A stretch of 42,318 bases of DNA, from the NCBI GenBank assembly GCA_003223325.1, contig QHYS01000171.1, positions 1 to 42,318 on the forward strand, in the 5' to 3' direction. The position numbers were made by a program, and so were the translations under genes. Positions 28,741 through 36,032 of this stretch are shown piece after piece. Origin of the DNA: Acidobacteriota bacterium (GTDB lineage: Bacteria > Acidobacteriota > Terriglobia > Acidiferrales > UBA7541). The notes beneath the pieces were generated by a model, which did not search any database, was not told the DNA's origin, and saw only the letters and a program-made list of their open reading frames with translations. Positions within the stretch are counted from its first letter, which is position 1. Each line of letters opens with the position of its first letter.

Positions 28741-28814
28741 GCGGGCGTGGTTCAATGGTAGAATAGCGGCTTCCCAAGCCGCGGACGTGGGTTCGATTCC
28801 CATCGCCCGCTCCA
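28741..28814 (+). tRNA. tRNA-Gly (anticodon CCC)
   Basis: A complete cloverleaf: acceptor GCGGGCG pairs perfectly with CGCCCGC. The anticodon stem GCGGC/GCCGC holds the loop TTCCCAA (anticodon CCC at 28773-28775). The T arm GTGGG-TTCGATT-CCCAT is intact. The 3' CCA is encoded (28812-28814). It marks the boundary of the decayed island on its right. Confidence 0.97.
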
Positions 28815-28823
28815 TAACTCCTG

Positions 28824-28931
28824 TTGACGCAGTTGGCTTACTGGCTTTCCTTCCCGAAATTGACCCCTAAAGCGCCCAATTTTGGACGCAGTTGGACGCG
28901 AAATCCGTCAAGATGGAGTGAATTGGACGCG
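28824..28931 (+). repeat. iterated TTG(G)ACGC repeats just 3' of tRNA-Gly
   Basis: TTGACGCAGTTGG (28824-28836) recurs with one inserted G at 28882-28895, and further TTGGACGCG copies lie at 28892-28900 and 28923-28931. Spaced short repeats beside a tRNA resemble integrase arm-binding sites of an excised or decayed element, but no integrase reading frame could be recognised. No gene is supported between 28815 and 29056. Confidence 0.4.
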
Positions 28932-29056
28932 ACGTTTTCGGGTCCCGTCATACGCTCGGATTATGCTCGCACGTGGAGACGGCGGGCGCGTAACCACTAC
29001 AGCTTGTCGGCGATTGAGTCGAATACCCAAGACCTGAAACCTAATGCAGCGGATAG

Positions 29057-29097
29057 CTGCCGGGTCAGATTTGAACTGACGACCTTCGGGTTATGAG
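29057..29097 (-). pseudogene. 3' half of a tRNA-Met gene (anticodon CAT)
   Basis: The minus strand reads the anticodon loop CTCATAA, the 3' anticodon strand CCCGA, the variable region, a perfect T arm (GTCAG-TTCAAAT-CTGAC, 29080-29064) and a 7-base acceptor strand. The 5' anticodon strand does not pair, and no D arm or 5' acceptor precedes it. The break falls at the anticodon loop, where tyrosine integrases often recombine, so this looks like an attachment-site remnant. No CCA is encoded. Confidence 0.6.
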
Positions 29098-29231
29098 AAC
29101 GGAGTTAGTTAAACGACAGCCAACGCCTCGGCCGCGCCAAAACTGATCGCCTCCTTGTGCTTATGCGTATCGGTCTAATCTGCATCGGGCTTCGAGTTCT
29201 TGGAGAGGGCGCTGTGGTGCGAGATGGATCA

Positions 29232-29384
29232 TTACGTGTCTGTGATGGCCGGCGAAGAACGCACTCCCGGCAGAACCTGGATAGTGATCATCCGGCCTCG
29301 GTGGCAGAGGGGGCATTCCCGCAAAGAATGGCCCGTGAGTTTCTCGTATCGATCCCGATAGTCCTCCGGTGTCGCAGGGATCGC
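29232..29384 (-). pseudogene. C-terminal fragment of a transposase (IS91-like, tentative)
   Basis: Fifty codons ending at TAA encode TPEDYRDRYEKLTGHSLREC, then a CxxC pair (CPLCHRGRM) and TIQVLPGVRSSPA. A YRxRYxxLTG segment followed by a zinc-ribbon-like C-terminus is a typical transposase tail; I associate it with IS91-like enzymes but cannot exclude another family. The rest of the transposase is missing: an in-frame stop lies about 20 codons upstream and no catalytic domain is present. Confidence 0.5.
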
Positions 29385-29559
29385 CAACGGTACGCCAGCC
29401 GAGGAGTTCGCTCGTGAGGTCGATCATGTTATCTCGGACTTCGTGAACTATGACCGCCCCAACCTGCTGGCTGCCGCGAGACGCGTGGCCAACGCGGAGC
29501 AGAAAGCTGCACTTCGGCAATTACCTGCCACCGAGCGACGTCACTGCGACCGAGGGTAG
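29362..29559 (+). other. possible gene fragment, 65 codons without a start
   Basis: Between in-frame stops at 29359 and 29557 the plus strand reads a protein-like, helix-rich peptide (for example EEFAREVDHVISDFVNYDR and ARRVANAEQKAALRQL). It has no clear start and no recognised family. It may be a scrap of an accessory gene abutting the transposase tail. The stretch 29560-29854 holds no supportable gene apart from the promoter below. Confidence 0.25.
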
Positions 29560-29817
29560 CACTACTGCAGCCAGCTGTGTCGGCAGCGTGGGGGTATGCG
29601 CCTGCGCCACAGGATACTGATATCTTTTATATTTCCCGCGATAGTAAAAAAACGGATTCACACGATCGCTGTCATACCGGCATGTTGTTCCGTTTTGTAC
29701 GCTTTTGCACCCCGAAGTCGGACAGAACACGGATAGTTCCCAGCGGAAAACTTGGGGTTATGGACCGAGGATTTTTCCCGACAATCGCTGACGAGCTGGA
29801 AGTAATCGCCCTCCACC

Positions 29818-29846
29818 TTGAAATGTCCTTCATAATCTGTCATAAA
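29818..29846 (+). promoter_or_regulatory. possible promoter of the parDE module
   Basis: TTGAAA (29818-29823) and CATAAA (29841-29846) are 17 bases apart, directly before the antitoxin start at 29855. The predicted transcription start is almost at the ATG and no Shine-Dalgarno is visible, so translation may be nearly leaderless, or may use the second ATG at 29861. Confidence 0.35.
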
Positions 29847-29854
29847 CTGAATGT

Positions 29855-30112
29855 ATGGTAATGACTTCACTGAACATCTCGCTTCCTGAAAACCTGAAAG
29901 CGTATGTTGAAGGCCAAGTTGCATCGGGTGATTGGGGTACTCCAAGTGAATACATTCGGGAGCTGATCCGGCAAGACAAAGAGCGCCGGATGGCGAATCT
30001 CGAACAGGAACTGCTCGCGGCGGCGATGGGACCGAAAATCGAGGTAACGATAGCGGAGATTCGCAAGAAAGGTTTAGTAACTGCCCTGCGGGAGCGAGCT
30101 CGTCGGGCGTGA
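29855..30112 (+). CDS. ParD-like ribbon-helix-helix antitoxin
   Basis: 85 aa. The N-terminal ribbon-helix-helix reads LNISLPENLKAYVEGQVASG, followed by the ParD signature WGTPSEYIRELIRQDKERR; the C-terminal half is the usual toxin-wrapping helix. It represses its own operon and neutralises ParE in characterised homologues. The reading frame is intact. Its TGA overlaps the toxin GTG by 4 bp. Because the toxin is interrupted by stop codons, this may now be an orphan antitoxin. Confidence 0.88.
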   Translation: MVMTSLNISLPENLKAYVEGQVASGDWGTPSEYIRELIRQDKERRMANLEQELLAAAMGPKIEVTIAEIRKKGLVTALRERARRA

Positions 30113-30447
30113 AGGCGCTTGGACTTGTTTTCAGCGATGCGGCCATAGCCGATATCTTGGAGCAATCTGACTGGTATGCGCAAAAAGTAGGTCGCCGTGT
30201 GGAGAAACGATGGGAAGCCTGTGTCACTTCAACACTGCTCAAAATCGCTAGGCGGCCAGGCGCCGGTTCGTCCTGCGAGTTCGGCCCGTAAGAGCTGCGC
30301 GGGACGCGTCGCAAATCCATCGCCGGATTTCCCAAACATCTGATCTTTTAGCAAGCGCGCGAAAGCGAGATTCTCATTCTGCGTGTCGTTCATGGGGCGC
30401 GTGACCTTGAGAGCCTGTTTTCCGAAGGCGGGTCATCTGGTTCATAA
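30109..30447 (+). pseudogene. ParE-like toxin with two in-frame stop codons
   Basis: One continuous frame of 112 codons plus a final TAA encodes a full ParE/RelE-fold toxin: LVFSDAAIADILEQSDWYAQ at the N-terminus, ELRGTRRKSIAGFPKHLIF in the middle and ILILRVVHGARDLESLF at the C-terminus. It is broken by TAA at 30289 and TAG at 30349, with no frameshift. The TAG falls where homologues usually have Tyr after HLIF. A GTG start overlaps parD (GTGA). The first stop leaves a 60-aa product without the C-terminal core strands, so the toxin should be inactive unless the stops are read through. Confidence 0.8.
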
Positions 30448-30820
30448 CTGCAGCAAGGAACCCATCGCGAAGACCAGGGTCCTGAAATCATCCTCCGAGG
30501 TGCTCCATAGCTTTCTCTTTGTCATTCAGGCACTTGCAAGCGGACGCCTTGCGTTTCGAACTGCTGCGACGTCGCCAGAACCGATTATGCTAATGCCAGT
30601 GCTGGATGCAGCTAGCACTCAATTTCGGAAACCTTCCCCGACCACCTGGAGATTTCGAGGTCATAGAATAGAAGTTCTACAAATTGAGCTACTACTCCGT
30701 ATTAGTGTTGAAGAAGCGCAAAGCACAGGGTTAGCTTTAACGCGCGGCTGGATGGCTGGATGTACTTCCCGATTCCGATCGGTACGAACCCATCTCCCTC
30801 CTCCCCTCGCCCGTGCGCCG
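30448..30820 (+). other. 373-bp stretch with no supportable gene
   Basis: Open frames here lack starts, ribosome-binding sites or recognisable motifs. A 27-codon minus-strand frame near 30450-30530 (MTKRKLWSTSEDDFR) is too short to call. No repeat, hairpin or tRNA was noticed. It is probably decayed island DNA. Confidence 0.5.
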
Positions 30821-31285
30821 CTACTTGTACGGAAGCCTGTGTGCCTCGAGCCAGTTGCGTGCGATTTCTGCCAGCGCTTCCTCGCGGAAGCGATACCAAC
30901 TTTGTTCAATGCCCAGGCGCCGAATTGTACTCCGAAACATCCGAAAGGCGCCTACTCCATGAATGGCCTCCAGCAGTTCTTGCCGCGCCCGTTCGCTACG
31001 CTGTGCCTGTGCGAATTCATCCATAATGGACCACTCATGAATCTCGAAGCGGTCCGGCAACTGCAGGCAACAGTTGCTCGCGAGTACGGCGCGGACCCTC
31101 CGCACCATCTGAAGCTGCCATTCAGGGAGCTCGTCTAGAGATTCCTGCGTTTCTTCTGCCAGACGCCGTTCTTCCTTCGTCGCAGTGACGATCTCGCCCG
31201 TGTCCGGATCCAAGTAGGAAAGGCAATTCTCGCCCTGCATCTCCATTGCCTCGATTACCTCTCGAAGAGAAATGACAGTTGCCAT
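30821..31285 (-). CDS. UPF0158-family protein of unknown function
   Basis: 154 aa. It follows the UPF0158 pattern: an N-terminal strand-helix MATVISLREVIEAMEMQ, SYLDPDTGEIVTATKEE, LPDRFEIHEWSIMDEFAQ, and the C-terminal LLEAIHGVGAFRMFRSTI and SWYRFREEALAEIARNWLE. The family has no established activity. The start at 31285 is chosen from the family N-terminus, with GAGG about 12 bases upstream; the ORF runs 40 codons further into transposase remnants. It is the only intact gene in this part of the island apart from parD. Confidence 0.8.
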   Translation of the reverse strand: MATVISLREVIEAMEMQGENCLSYLDPDTGEIVTATKEERRLAEETQESLDELPEWQLQMVRRVRAVLASNCCLQLPDRFEIHEWSIMDEFAQAQRSERARQELLEAIHGVGAFRMFRSTIRRLGIEQSWYRFREEALAEIARNWLEAHRLPYK

Positions 31286-31461
31286 TCTGTTCCACGCCTC
31301 TGCCGCAGCACCCCTCTCGACCGACAGGCAATCATTGCGACCGTAGCACGCTGTTCCAAGCCTAGTCCCAGGAGTTTCTCTCCTGCTCGAGTCGAATGTT
31401 GACACCCCAAAGCAGTCGTTTGGGCCCGTCGTAGACCGCCCGTTCCTCGTGAGCGATGCAG

Positions 31462-31966
31462 ATAGCGAAACTGAGCATCCCGATTTGGGTGCTGTGGACC
31501 TTCACGGGTCTTGCGGTTCGCCTGCAGCGAATATCCCATCTGCTGCAGATAGCGTGCCACCGTCATCCAGGAGATCGCGTATCCTCTCCGGGTCAACTCC
31601 TCGGCGATCCGGCGCGTCGACTTGCTCGTCCAGCGCAGCAGGCTCATCGGATCTCCCGCCGTGGTTTCCTCCACAATGGCAGTCAACTGTTGGCGAATCC
31701 CCGGCTCTATCTCCTCCACCCTCTTCCGCCCTCCTCCGGGCTGCCGGACTCGGCCTTCCGGGGGAGTCACCATTCTCCTGCCGCTCTCCAACTCTTGCAC
31801 CGCCTGGGTGATGGTGGTGCGCGACATACCGGTCAACTTCGACAAGTAACTACTATAATTCCGCCTCGTCCCCAATCCATCGCTTTATCCGCTACATAGA
31901 TCCGTGCCTGGAACTCATTCAAGGTGCTCAACACCTTCAGCCATCGAGATCCGACGACGCTCTTCG
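31462..31966 (-). pseudogene. ISAzo13-family transposase, N-terminal part, frameshifted and truncated
   Basis: Two frames together rebuild the N-terminal region of an ISAzo13 transposase. First comes SRWLKVLSTLNEFQARIYVA up to DWGRGG (about 31950-31868). After a frameshift follow SKLTGMSRTTITQAVQELE, RVRQPGGGRK, GDPMSLLRWTSKSTRRIAEEL and YSLQANRKTREGPQHPNRDAQFRY, ending near 31462. After QFRY the homology stops although the frame stays open to 31255, so the whole catalytic DDE half is missing. Terminal inverted repeats were not found. Confidence 0.8.
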
Positions 31967-32036
31967 GATGGACCTGATCATCCACCCTAGCGTAACCAAA
32001 ATTCAGCAATTTGTCCAGCTTGTTTTGCTACAGGCC

Positions 32037-32210
32037 CTACGTCCAACCAAGTCCCTCGGTGTTTGGAGTGCGCCCTGTCGCGACAAGCAGGTGAGTACCG
32101 GTCAGCGTCTTATCGGTTCCATTCTGTTCGAACACAATGGTCACCGAGTCTCCCGATTTTCCAGACACGCGTTTGACACGTGTATTCAGATGAACATCGA
32201 TCGATGACAT
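32037..32210 (-). pseudogene. fragment of an FAD/NAD(P)-disulfide oxidoreductase
   Basis: 57 codons carry RVKRVSGKSGDSVTIVFEQN, then THLLVATGRTPNTEGLG, the second-dinucleotide-fold region with the ATGRxPN signature of class I pyridine-nucleotide disulfide oxidoreductases (mercuric/dihydrolipoamide reductase type). The frame hits a stop right after GLGWT. The FAD-binding N-terminus, the redox disulfide and the dimer domain are absent. Its upstream edge runs seamlessly into an aquaporin fragment. Confidence 0.65.
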
Positions 32211-32406
32211 AGAGCCATGCGTCCCAAAACTCCACTTTCCCCAGACGATAAAAACTGAAGGTGATTGCTGGATTGAAATGACCTCCTGAGCGTTTGCCCC
32301 AGGGTGAGATCACAATTGCTATCGCCGTCGCACCCATGACCAACCCCGTGAGCACCCTGCGAGCAACGCCGCCAGAAATAAACTGTCGCACAATTGACGC
32401 AGGGTG
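32203..32406 (-). pseudogene. fragment of a MIP-family (aquaporin) channel
   Basis: 68 codons read HPASIVRQFISGGVARRVL, LVMGATAIAIVISPWGKRSG and GHFNPAITFSFYRLGKVEFW, ending WDAWLYVI. The NPA box (NPAI) and surrounding aquaporin helices are clear. The protein breaks off at YVI and joins the oxidoreductase fragment; helix 1 upstream and the second NPA half are missing. The 32407-32631 stretch beyond shows no gene. Confidence 0.7.
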
Positions 32407-32631
32407 CTGTAATGTAATCTAACAAAGTCGCAGCCACGTGAGGGACGCTGTACGCCGATGTTCGTCACCGTCATGGCCCGGCCTTGTTTGCTTCGCAGTT
32501 TTTTTGGAAAGTACCAACCAGCCTCTTGGCTATCCTTCCTCGAAATAGATCAGCCGCTTGCGGAGCAGCGTGGCTGAGAAACTTTGGAAAAGGTGGCCTC
32601 CTGAATTAGCTTCGAGGTCAGCACATTGCAC

Positions 32632-33288
32632 TCAGGTGGCCACAACGAGACCGCCTGCGGCGCGAATGACCTCCCCGGTGATCCAGGCTGATTCGTCTGA
32701 CGCTAGGAACACAGCCAGCGGGGCGATATCCGTGACGCGACCGAGCCGGCCGAGCGGCGTCTTTCCAGCCAGAACGGCGCCGGCACCACCCTCAAAGGTC
32801 CCCGCGGCTACATTGCCTTCGGTTTCTGTATGACCGGGAGCGATGGCGTTGACGCGTATCTTGCGCGGCGCCAGTTCGAGCGCCACTCCCCTGGTCAGCG
32901 TTTCGATGGCGCCTTTCGTGGAAGCGTACAGCAGGGCTCCCGCCACCGGATGCGAGCCGACGATAGAGCTGAGGTTGATTATGCTCCCGCCGTCGGCCCC
33001 GAACCGCTTGATCGCCTCCTGCACGGTGAGAATCGCCCCGAGAACGTTGATGTTGTAGTGGAGGTGAAAGCTCACTCCGGTGATCTCCGCGAAGGCGCCG
33101 AAGCGGAATACCCCGGCGTTGTTGACCAAAACGTCCAGTCTTCCGAACGCGGAATGCACTTCATTGAATAACCGCGCGACATCTGCGGCCCTGGACAGGT
33201 CGGCCCCGACCGCCATCGCCTCGCCCCCGTGGTCGGTGATCGACTGAGCGACGCGTTCGGCGCCTTCCCGGTCGGAGGAATAGTTCAC
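32632..33288 (-). CDS. short-chain dehydrogenase/reductase lacking its N-terminus (probable pseudogene)
   Basis: 218 aa of a classical SDR: GADLSRAADVARLF, LVNNAGVF, the catalytic Ser in INLSSIVGS, the YASTK catalytic Tyr/Lys, NAIAPGHTETEG and WITGEVIRAAGG. Homologues begin about 30 residues earlier with the TGxxxGIG cofactor loop; here that part is absent. In-frame codons (ISVV) run back only to the TAA of the TonB-dependent receptor gene at 33298. A GTG at 33288 is the only start and has no ribosome-binding site. Without the Rossmann glycine loop it should not bind NAD(P)H, so it is probably dead. Confidence 0.75.
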   Translation of the reverse strand: MNYSSDREGAERVAQSITDHGGEAMAVGADLSRAADVARLFNEVHSAFGRLDVLVNNAGVFRFGAFAEITGVSFHLHYNINVLGAILTVQEAIKRFGADGGSIINLSSIVGSHPVAGALLYASTKGAIETLTRGVALELAPRKIRVNAIAPGHTETEGNVAAGTFEGGAGAVLAGKTPLGRLGRVTDIAPLAVFLASDESAWITGEVIRAAGGLVVAT

Positions 33289-33297
33289 GACAGAAAT

Positions 33298-35982
33298 TTA
33301 GAAGACGAACCTCAGAGAGAGTTGCAAGCGGCGCGCGGGATCAGCGGAATTATCAGGCCGACCGAAAAATGGAGAGGTCCTGATGCCTACGAAATTCATG
33401 TAGTTGACATGATTCAGAACATTGAAAGCGTCGGCAGACAATTCGAATTGCTCCGGGTTGTGGTCGCGACCGTTCAGGCGGAAGGTTTTCCCGAAGCGCA
33501 AGTCAACATTGGCATAGCCTGGCCCATGGCCCGTATTCCGAGTGACGCCCGGCGGACGGTCATTGAATACGGTGTCCCCGTTGTTGTCCAGCCCGGTCGT
33601 AATATTGAAGGGGATTCCGGAAGCTACTCTCGTAGCAGCTCCCATTCGCAAGCCCCAAGGCAGATCGTACGTGCCAATGAAGTTGAATTGGTGCCGGCGG
33701 TCATAGTCCGATCGGCCCCATTCGGGGCGCAGATCATAATTATTAGCAGGCAGGAAAAACATTCCGCTCGTATCGTCCATCGCACGTGAAAGAATGTATT
33801 GGGAGTAGAGGCTGAAATTCCGGCGGGGGTGCAAGCGCAGAGCAAAGGTCACGTTGTTGCTACGCGATAATCCGGCCGACTCGAATTGATCCAGATTGAA
33901 GATGGAGGGATCCGGCCGCACCCTTGCCCCCGGGAGGGGCGCGTTGATGTTTCTCATGCGGTAGAGATGAACGCCGCGCACAGTCGTTAGATCCACGGTA
34001 AAGTAGTTTGCCCCCTTTCCAAGCTTTTGTTCGACCGCGAAATTACCCTGAATAAGGTATGGAAAGGTCATGTCTGCAGAAATCCTGACCAAGCTCGACG
34101 GGACAGTGGTGGCCGTTGTGCCGGTAGGAAAGGGGTTGGGGAAGGAAGGGTTCGTGATGACGATTTGTTGGATCTGGATACCATTGTAAAGCAACCCCTG
34201 TTGCTCCATAGCCTCAGGTTGCCGGTCGTAGAAAATTCCAAAGCCTGCACGAATGACAGTACGCGCGTTTGCCGGGGCATAGGCAATGGCCACCCGCGGC
34301 GCTACGTTGTCGAAGCGATTTCCGTTCGATTGCCCCTCATAGCGCAGTCCAAGCATGAGGGAGAGCTTTGGCCGCAACCGCATTTCGTCTTGAACGAAGG
34401 AGTAGAACTCGTGCTGAGCAAAAGAAATCTGCGGGTTACCAATATTTTGGGTGAATTGCGCTGGACTCTTTTGAGAGAAGGCAAAGGGGCAGGTTGGAGT
34501 AGGAAATAGGCACGAGAAAATGAATGTGCCGCCGAAGTTGGATGCGTCCATTGCCCGAATCCACCTGGGCCGGGCCCCGCCTCCGAATCGCAAAGTATGC
34601 ATTCCGTGAGACCAAGTGACGATGTCTTCGGCATCAACCAAAAAGTCTCGCTGGTGGAGCGAAACCTGTGCCCCTCCAGCTTGAAACGCACCGGGGAGCA
34701 GGACGGCCGGCTGATCGGTAATGCTCGATGTGTCTTGACGCCGCTCCCGGTAGGCTAAACGGAATTCGTTAAGGAGTGCCGGAGATGGGATAGCTGTCTC
34801 GAAGAGATTGAATTCGTTCCCATGGTCAAAGTAGTTTGTGGCCCGCTCTGGTAAATCGAATGCCCCGACGTTCTGGTTCTTGCGCAACTTGTTCTTGAAT
34901 TTATAGGTGAGGCTGAGTTTGTGATTCGTGCTGAGCTTGAAATTCAGGCGCGTAAAGAGATGAGTGTTCCGCTCGGGAGCTCCAAAATTCTGGACGAACG
35001 GACCAGACAGAGTCTGTGCGTCGACAACGGAGGTTTCGTTGTTGAGGTCATAACGCGCAGAAACGAGAAACGATACATCTTTGCTGATTGGCCCCTCCAA
35101 CTCGGCCTCGGAGATGGCGCGTTGGTGAGGCGGGACCGACGAAGCAAAGGTGTTGCGGGCATCGAAGGCAGAATTCAAAAAGTCTGTGAACGCGGTTCCA
35201 TGATATTGATGAATCCGGCGCTTTGTTTTCACTTCGATCCGGCCTTTTCCAGGGCGCCCAAATTCTGCGGAATAAGGATTCTGATTTACGGTGATGTTCT
35301 TGATGCTGGAGAGAGGCAAATCCAGGCTGTTAGTGGGAACACCATCCACAATGAGCTGAGGACCCATGGCTCCCGCCACGCTGGGGTCAGTGAAAATGGA
35401 AACTACCGCGAGGGGATCTCCATTCAACATAGGCAGGCCGCCTAAGAAATTGTCATCGACATGAAACCTGTCGACGTTCTCTTCCGGGGAGACGGGAACG
35501 GCGTCGGCCGAGACAGTCACTTCCTCCGTGACCTGCAAGATCTCCAGGCGGATCTGCACAGGGGGCACGAAGGATGTGCCGACAGTTAATTTACGCTGCG
35601 CGAGCTTGAAACCCGGGGCAATGGCCGTCAGGATGTAATCCCCGGCGGGCTGGTTGTCGAAAGAAAAACCGCCCGTTTCATCCGTGGTGACTTCCGTTTC
35701 GTGCCCGCTCGGTTGCTCGGTTAGTTTGATCTTGGCACCTCGTATGGGTGCTGCATTCGCATCCAAAACTGTGACCGTCAGGGCGCCCGCTTCTTGGGCA
35801 CCTGCCACTACGGAGAAGACGGATGGAGAGACCGTAAGCAGAATGATCAAGATAATACGGAGAACGAAATTCTTTTCGCGGAACGAGATCCGCTCAGCAA
35901 CATGCGAACCGCGGTTTCTGAGCCCCCAAGCCTTCTGAATGTGTCGAGAAGCTCCGTGCATAAGCACCTGCATCATAGACAT
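33298..35982 (-). CDS. Oar-like TonB-dependent outer-membrane receptor
   Basis: About 894 aa. A long basic n-region and hydrophobic core VLRIILIILLTVSPSVFSVVAG with an AGA-QE cleavage site (about residue 62) form the signal peptide. A carboxypeptidase-regulatory (CNA-B-like) domain follows (about 66-145, LTVTVLDANAAPIRGAKI). The plug contains QLIVDGVPTNSLDL and NPYSAEFGRPGKGRIEVKT, and then come barrel strands ending LQLSLRFVF. This layout is the large Oar-like class of Acidobacteriota, though shorter than the usual 1,100 or so. AAGGGG lies close to the ATG cluster at 35982-35976. It starts 50 bp after the phosphotransferase gene, possibly in the same operon. Confidence 0.9.
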   Translation of the reverse strand: MSMMQVLMHGASRHIQKAWGLRNRGSHVAERISFREKNFVLRIILIILLTVSPSVFSVVAGAQEAGALTVTVLDANAAPIRGAKIKLTEQPSGHETEVTTDETGGFSFDNQPAGDYILTAIAPGFKLAQRKLTVGTSFVPPVQIRLEILQVTEEVTVSADAVPVSPEENVDRFHVDDNFLGGLPMLNGDPLAVVSIFTDPSVAGAMGPQLIVDGVPTNSLDLPLSSIKNITVNQNPYSAEFGRPGKGRIEVKTKRRIHQYHGTAFTDFLNSAFDARNTFASSVPPHQRAISEAELEGPISKDVSFLVSARYDLNNETSVVDAQTLSGPFVQNFGAPERNTHLFTRLNFKLSTNHKLSLTYKFKNKLRKNQNVGAFDLPERATNYFDHGNEFNLFETAIPSPALLNEFRLAYRERRQDTSSITDQPAVLLPGAFQAGGAQVSLHQRDFLVDAEDIVTWSHGMHTLRFGGGARPRWIRAMDASNFGGTFIFSCLFPTPTCPFAFSQKSPAQFTQNIGNPQISFAQHEFYSFVQDEMRLRPKLSLMLGLRYEGQSNGNRFDNVAPRVAIAYAPANARTVIRAGFGIFYDRQPEAMEQQGLLYNGIQIQQIVITNPSFPNPFPTGTTATTVPSSLVRISADMTFPYLIQGNFAVEQKLGKGANYFTVDLTTVRGVHLYRMRNINAPLPGARVRPDPSIFNLDQFESAGLSRSNNVTFALRLHPRRNFSLYSQYILSRAMDDTSGMFFLPANNYDLRPEWGRSDYDRRHQFNFIGTYDLPWGLRMGAATRVASGIPFNITTGLDNNGDTVFNDRPPGVTRNTGHGPGYANVDLRFGKTFRLNGRDHNPEQFELSADAFNVLNHVNYMNFVGIRTSPFFGRPDNSADPARRLQLSLRFVF

Positions 35983-36032
35983 ACCCCTTCGCCCAGCTAT
36001 TCCCGGGCGAGGAGCGGGCAAGAGCAATCAAG

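Follow-up and report, generated by a model that had tools for sequence, protein, structure and literature searches.

A mosaic of truncated genes, probably genetic debris, beside a tRNA-Gly gene in an acidobacterial draft genome

Background

Clusters of pseudogenes and gene remnants, in which internal fragments of genes end in sharp truncations and adjoin unrelated pieces, are known from bacteria, and so are variable, island-like stretches that start 3' of tRNA genes. Among insertion sequences, the ISAzo13 family makes a 3-bp target duplication according to the part of PMC10045372 that deals with it. For Streptomyces ambofaciens, the relevant sections of PMC5869714 describe end-joining scars that include a fill-in of 1-4 nt and report five insertions at healed breaks, of 30 bp to 18.8 kb and all endogenous. 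The short ones measured 30, 42 or 83 bp, and the 30-bp one came from a transposase gene.

The locus described here lies in a contig (C156) of 42,318 nucleotides that was analysed over its whole length and is called the window below. It shows the same internal fragments, sharp truncations and unrelated neighbours as the known remnant clusters and differs from them in nothing essential, so that it is ordinary debris of a known kind; its particularity is that the parental operon could be named. Like the island-like stretches, it starts no more than a few bases past the 3' terminus of a tRNA gene, here tRNA-Gly. With the ISAzo13 family it shares the N-terminal part of the transposase, the start of the DDE domain and the 5' region, in a copy that is truncated and broken in frame. 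With the end-joined breaks of S. ambofaciens, as the cited sections of PMC5869714 present them, it shares overlap-free joints and short inserts, including one that derives from a transposase gene. Those breaks were induced and shown by experiment, whereas the ones in the window are deduced from sequence alone. The mechanism is therefore a known one, and for the window a putative one.

Results and discussion

Layout of the mosaic

The draft genome (6.1 Mb in 377 contigs) was compared with three other members of its genus (G001, G002 and G003), two members of another genus of the same family (G072 and G088) and one of another family (G060), among further genomes. A preliminary description of the window had recognised on the minus strand pieces of an aquaporin, an oxidoreductase and an ISAzo13 transposase, all of which Pfam and DNA alignments confirmed at the places given. 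The mosaic extends further than it assumed, since a fourth piece, from a short-chain dehydrogenase (SDR) gene at 33289..32613, lay outside the interval described. The features are the following:

28741-28814, plus strand: intact tRNA-Gly (CCC) gene, the near border (ARAGORN; Rfam tRNA, 68.7 bits)
28815-33289: variable stretch, probably a decayed island; homology to G001 ends at 28817 on the UbiD side and resumes at 33290, on another G001 contig, on the TonB side
31450-32041, minus strand: remnant of an ISAzo13-type element, 5' region and N-terminal part of the transposase (Pfam PF07592; alignments); frame broken, cut at about 31450, with a putative end at 32041
32042-32201, minus strand: 160-bp internal piece of a gene for an FAD pyridine-nucleotide-disulphide oxidoreductase (93.8% DNA identity to L090 9824-9984 and L091 3918-4078)
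32202-32418, minus strand: inner part of a gene for an aquaporin (MIP), spanning about 72 codons in which one NPA motif was read by eye (Pfam MIP; alignments)
32419-32612: filler of 194 bases, flanked by the SDR and aquaporin pieces; origin not found by DNA search outside the window (61 genomes) or by Pfam on four reading-frame peptides
32613-33289, minus strand: SDR gene without its first part, stop codon kept (DNA identity to intact genes in relatives)
33290-36027, minus strand: TonB-dependent receptor-like gene with a short downstream flank, the far border (Pfam outer membrane beta barrel 6.9e-71, TonB_dep_Rec_b-barrel 7.9e-9; stop codon 33298-33300; 89.7% DNA identity to G001:C381 over 33290-35798)

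Read along the minus strand, the order is TonB receptor-like gene, SDR piece, filler, aquaporin piece, oxidoreductase piece and ISAzo13-type remnant. The SDR, oxidoreductase, aquaporin and transposase genes are all shorter than their intact homologues. We consider the mosaic, which occupies 28.8-33.3 kb between the tRNA-Gly and TonB receptor genes, to be genetic debris that lies 3' of the tRNA-Gly gene in a variable stretch, with a probability of about 0.85. Its pieces are unlikely to yield a working protein, and nothing in it points to a newly fused gene.

The parent operon

Two of the pieces derive from a single operon, which G072 and G088 carry intact on one strand and which encodes an SDR of 263 aa, an enoyl-CoA hydratase-like protein of 268 aa (Pfam ECH_1, 7.9e-22) and an FAD-dependent oxidoreductase of 491 aa (Pyr_redox_2, 7.9e-58). 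The SDR passes the cut-off of one NCBIfam glucose 1-dehydrogenase subfamily (228.7 vs 215 bits), and the other two proteins stay below the NCBIfam cut-offs among the best 25 families listed for each. The window retains only the segments corresponding to L091 1654-2330 and 3918-4078, at about 94% DNA identity and with two sharp joints, and both keep the native order and strand. The 1.6 kb that separate the SDR and oxidoreductase genes in the operon are replaced by 0.4 kb that contain the aquaporin piece. With intact operons in relatives and two pieces left in the window, the gene graveyard formed by deletions or illegitimate joins that the preliminary description had proposed is supported. The oxidoreductase piece itself reached just 23.9 bits with Pfam Pyr_redox_2, slightly below the cut-off of 26.1, and its 93.8% DNA identity to the intact 491-aa gene of two relatives over 161 aligned columns (E 5e-65) indicates that this match is not due to chance.

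Intact SDR genes in relatives encode 252-263 aa. The SDR piece is most similar to G001 (95.9% DNA identity), followed by G088, G002 and G072 (94.2-94.4%), and G060 still shows 90.8% over 607 bases. Finding this gene at 91% in a different family suggests that the operon's SDR may have spread horizontally. In G001 a protein of the Phage_integrase family is encoded adjacent to the SDR. The alignments start at 33289 in G001, G002, G072 and G088 and at 33219 in G060, and the piece ends at 32613, just beyond its own stop codon. It is open over 218 codons, so that it may be a recent remnant or even continue to be translated, from a start codon inside it. Among the changes private to each gene, counted with G060 excluded, the window has 8 nonsynonymous and 3 synonymous ones vs 4 and 16 in G002 (Fisher p 0.007). 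G001 has 7 and 5, or 5 and 5 without the two changes that lie beyond the stop codon, and its contrast with the window is not significant (p 0.39). The counts lean toward decay and are not decisive.

Within the genus the operon is unevenly kept. G002 matches at 86% on two contigs up to L091 3361, which includes the SDR and hydratase genes and the beginning of the oxidoreductase gene, and G001 at 90% up to the end of its contig at L091 2514, which covers the SDR and the region after it. Of the operon, G003 yielded no more than 104 bp from the start of the SDR gene, plus more distant oxidoreductase and dehydrogenase genes. This piece (G003:C202, locus L192, 4973-5075) runs from the start codon to L091 1657 and is isolated, following an unrelated gene. 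The SDR gene is broken at nearly the same point in two genus members, from L091 1654 onwards in the window and at 1554-1657 in G003, with an overlap of 4 bp. We also considered that the TonB flank and the G003 piece had been exchanged reciprocally, for which no significant match was found.

The window's own genome yielded nothing else of the operon at a similar level of identity; its other matches to L091 1-6800 had 70-76% identity and lay on other contigs. Its other disulphide oxidoreductases, at 53% and 43% amino-acid identity, were rejected as second copies. Among plasmids, 39 records matched the operon, one at 80-90% and 38 at 60-80% identity, and none of the 39 covered 80% of it. The ten plasmid matches listed had 64.5-68.8% identity and were annotated, where named, as mercuric reductase or glucose 1-dehydrogenase.

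The aquaporin piece

The piece between the two operon remnants is recognised by Pfam MIP (E 1.4e-6, 28.7 bits vs a cut-off of 25). Its alignment to intact aquaporins reaches the residues YVI, exactly where the window sequence changes, so the break noticed there previously is correct. The piece is cut on the N-terminal side as well, which had been overlooked: intact genes are about 30 residues longer there, and no in-frame continuation of these residues was found above 32418, where a stop codon stands. The intact comparators are open frames of 273-316 codons, of which the window keeps about 72. With these 72 aa as query, 62 of 121 genomes matched at E 0.001, the own genome included and without a second match in it; the best other match had 59% amino-acid identity. 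In a sample of 396 genomes drawn evenly from the phylum, 26 matched at E 1e-12, the own one included, and the rest of them had 49-63% identity.

The preliminary description supposed that aquaporin and reductase might have been neighbours, as in arsenic or mercury islands. Actually, the neighbours of the oxidoreductase are the SDR and the enoyl-CoA hydratase, and the parent oxidoreductase obtains 347.1 bits with the NCBIfam MerA model TIGR02053, below its cut-off of 454.45. The intact aquaporin of G057 had no tblastn match (E 1e-3) on six operon loci (L090, L091, L096, L097, L098 and L193), and the aquaporin matches of G072 and G088 fall on contigs other than that of the operon, for which an old neighbourhood of the two genes was rejected. 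In the reverse comparison, the three operon proteins gave a single match at E 1e-5 on the aquaporin loci L092-L095, an SDR of G072 that lies about 4 kb away from the aquaporin and at 29% identity is too distant to be the SDR of the window. As the operon stretches read yielded no aquaporin match, the piece looks like an intruder, most likely a foreign fragment that sits where the hydratase and the first part of the oxidoreductase are missing.

A 93-aa open frame with a GTG start (32391..32110) spans the joint between aquaporin and oxidoreductase, and might be taken for a real fusion protein made of parts of both. However, the residues of the two proteins lie in different minus frames, the aquaporin is reduced to the remainder described above, and a query across the junction found it neither in 60 relatives nor in viral contigs. 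Since relatives have an operon from which this reading frame can be derived, a new fusion gene is very unlikely, to a degree that makes its chances negligible.

The ISAzo13-type remnant

The transposase piece matches Pfam DDE_Tnp_ISAZ013 (PF07592) with E 6.5e-28 over positions 2-80 of the 308 in the profile, of which a full public copy covers 2-308. The remnant aligns with two copies in its own genome (C299 and C358), with G102 and with public copies. Six of the 21 public relatives, the best ones, are acidobacterial metagenome-assembled genomes, two of them labelled Bryobacterales or Bryobacteraceae, from which the host of the window is probably an acidobacterium. No plasmid match to 31860-32060 was found.

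According to the preliminary description the joints carried no visible IS ends, which is possibly wrong. Below about 32020 the sequence aligns to the 5' regions of the own copy on C299, of G080:C61 and of several public ISAzo13-type copies, so the joint between oxidoreductase and transposon may be the left end of the element. The outermost 20 bases resemble the 5' ends of other copies loosely, by eye. We take 32041 to be probably the IS terminus, from these alignments and not from an inverted repeat: candidate repeats in the public copies L150 and L152 scored 25 vs a shuffled maximum of 34 and 21 vs 28, which is not significant. At most one end of the element is kept in the window, the right one being lost. 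A search for the terminus as a pattern gave, besides the own genome, one hit in 396 genomes of the phylum, with 3 mismatches and inside a long open frame whose beginning resembles a protein kinase by eye, which we regard as chance; viral contigs contained none.

The site beside the tRNA-Gly gene

On the near side the window, G001 and G002 share a gene for a UbiD protein (Pfam) followed by tRNA-Gly. Beyond the tRNA both relatives differ from the window, and at some distance G002 encodes a DUF5681 protein. The UbiD flank of G003 can be aligned as far as 28712 and is followed by an IS21-type pair, with no tRNA found after UbiD on the homologous stretch (L131). The stretch thus starts where a tRNA gene ends, and its content differs between relatives. 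Unlike in described tRNA-adjacent islands, no flanking repeat of the tRNA end was found in the window, where the tRNA itself is the sole match (up to 3 mismatches in 24 bases), and no integrase was seen: ten ORFs from the variable stretch gave no Pfam match of any kind at E 0.01. The reading as a decayed tRNA-adjacent island, which we consider probable, therefore rests on position and variability. No phage match to 31400-33300 was found.

Other small elements occur in the same stretch. At 29050-29101 on the minus strand a sequence resembles the 3' half of a tRNA, with a CAT anticodon loop by eye, where ARAGORN calls none; short stretches like it recur in all four genus genomes, and in the one checked no tRNA was called. 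The region 29855-30425, with DNA homologues at 71-78% in G076 and G090, contains an open ParD-type antitoxin gene (TIGR02606, above the cut-off) and then a ParE-like frame with stop codons (by eye; Pfam ParE only at E 0.043). A dispersed small repeat of 121 bp at 30599-30719 has relatives of about 70% in G086, G003 and G072 and elsewhere in the own genome. The stretch 30755-31070 has 78% DNA identity to G080:C253, and an open frame of 152 aa at 30821-31279, weakly similar to UPF0158 (19.9 bits, cut-off 21.1), is possibly a living gene within the debris.

Joints and a proposed history

At the joint between the TonB flank and the SDR piece (33290|33289), up to which the flank matches G001:C381, no base is shared on either side. 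At 32202|32201, between aquaporin and oxidoreductase, the oxidoreductase parent G088 shares 0 bases with the aquaporin parent G057 and 1 with G100. The short homology GATCGATG that the preliminary description had suggested for this first joint was rejected by this comparison of both parents, as no more than 0-1 bases of the window occur in the other parent. ATCG stands at the break in both G088 and G057, and the window keeps the two copies in tandem, so nothing has collapsed, unlike in microhomology joining. The own genome encodes Ku (1.7e-47), which makes end joining possible. Where both parents are known, at two joints, the overlap is 0-1 bases, and this together with Ku is a feature of end-joining scars.

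These joints also bear on whether the mosaic exists in a cell at all, or is a chimera in which a metagenome assembler fused reads of unrelated genes. A genome in 377 contigs invites the suspicion, as does a junction that is absent from the 60 relatives and from viral contigs and that among 195 loci occurs only in 11, all cut from the own contig. Assemblers, however, normally fuse reads by overlaps longer than the 0-1 bases that the parents share at the two testable joints, or the 4 obtained with the doubled ATCG. Furthermore, the SDR and oxidoreductase pieces stand in the order and orientation of their common operon, and the own genome has no second copy of the pieces at comparable identity. 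We regard an assembly artefact as quite improbable.

We favour the following history. The operon of SDR, enoyl-CoA hydratase and FAD-dependent disulphide oxidoreductase would once have been resident, or would have arrived already damaged. Breaks would have taken the start of the SDR, the hydratase and most of the oxidoreductase, and DNA with a partial aquaporin gene would have been joined into the gap. The ISAzo13-type element was probably inserted in the leftover oxidoreductase piece and truncated later. That Ku-type end joining made the joints, and that the events followed this order, we infer from the structure of the locus. A different possibility is that the operon was never resident and that ready-made short fragments were joined at breaks by Ku-dependent end joining. 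The sharp borders of the 160- and 217-bp pieces, the 104 bp that G003 retains of this SDR gene and the presence of Ku would suit it, as would the insertions at healed breaks that the sections of PMC5869714 cited above describe in S. ambofaciens. Against it, the SDR and oxidoreductase pieces belong to one operon and have kept their order and orientation, as would be expected of a resident operon but not of random capture, and we find this alternative unlikely. Similarly doubtful is the wider idea that the locus records end joining as such, with foreign or displaced scraps of 100-250 bp ligated without overlap and the near-identical SDR breaks of the two genus members going back to a shared ancestral staggered break or to a hotspot.

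Conclusions

The locus shows how a "chimeric" reading frame of a draft genome can be traced to an operon of its relatives, and taken alone it has little significance. If the end-joining explanation were true at many places, such loci would be a natural record of the gain and loss of short DNA in Ku-carrying bacteria.
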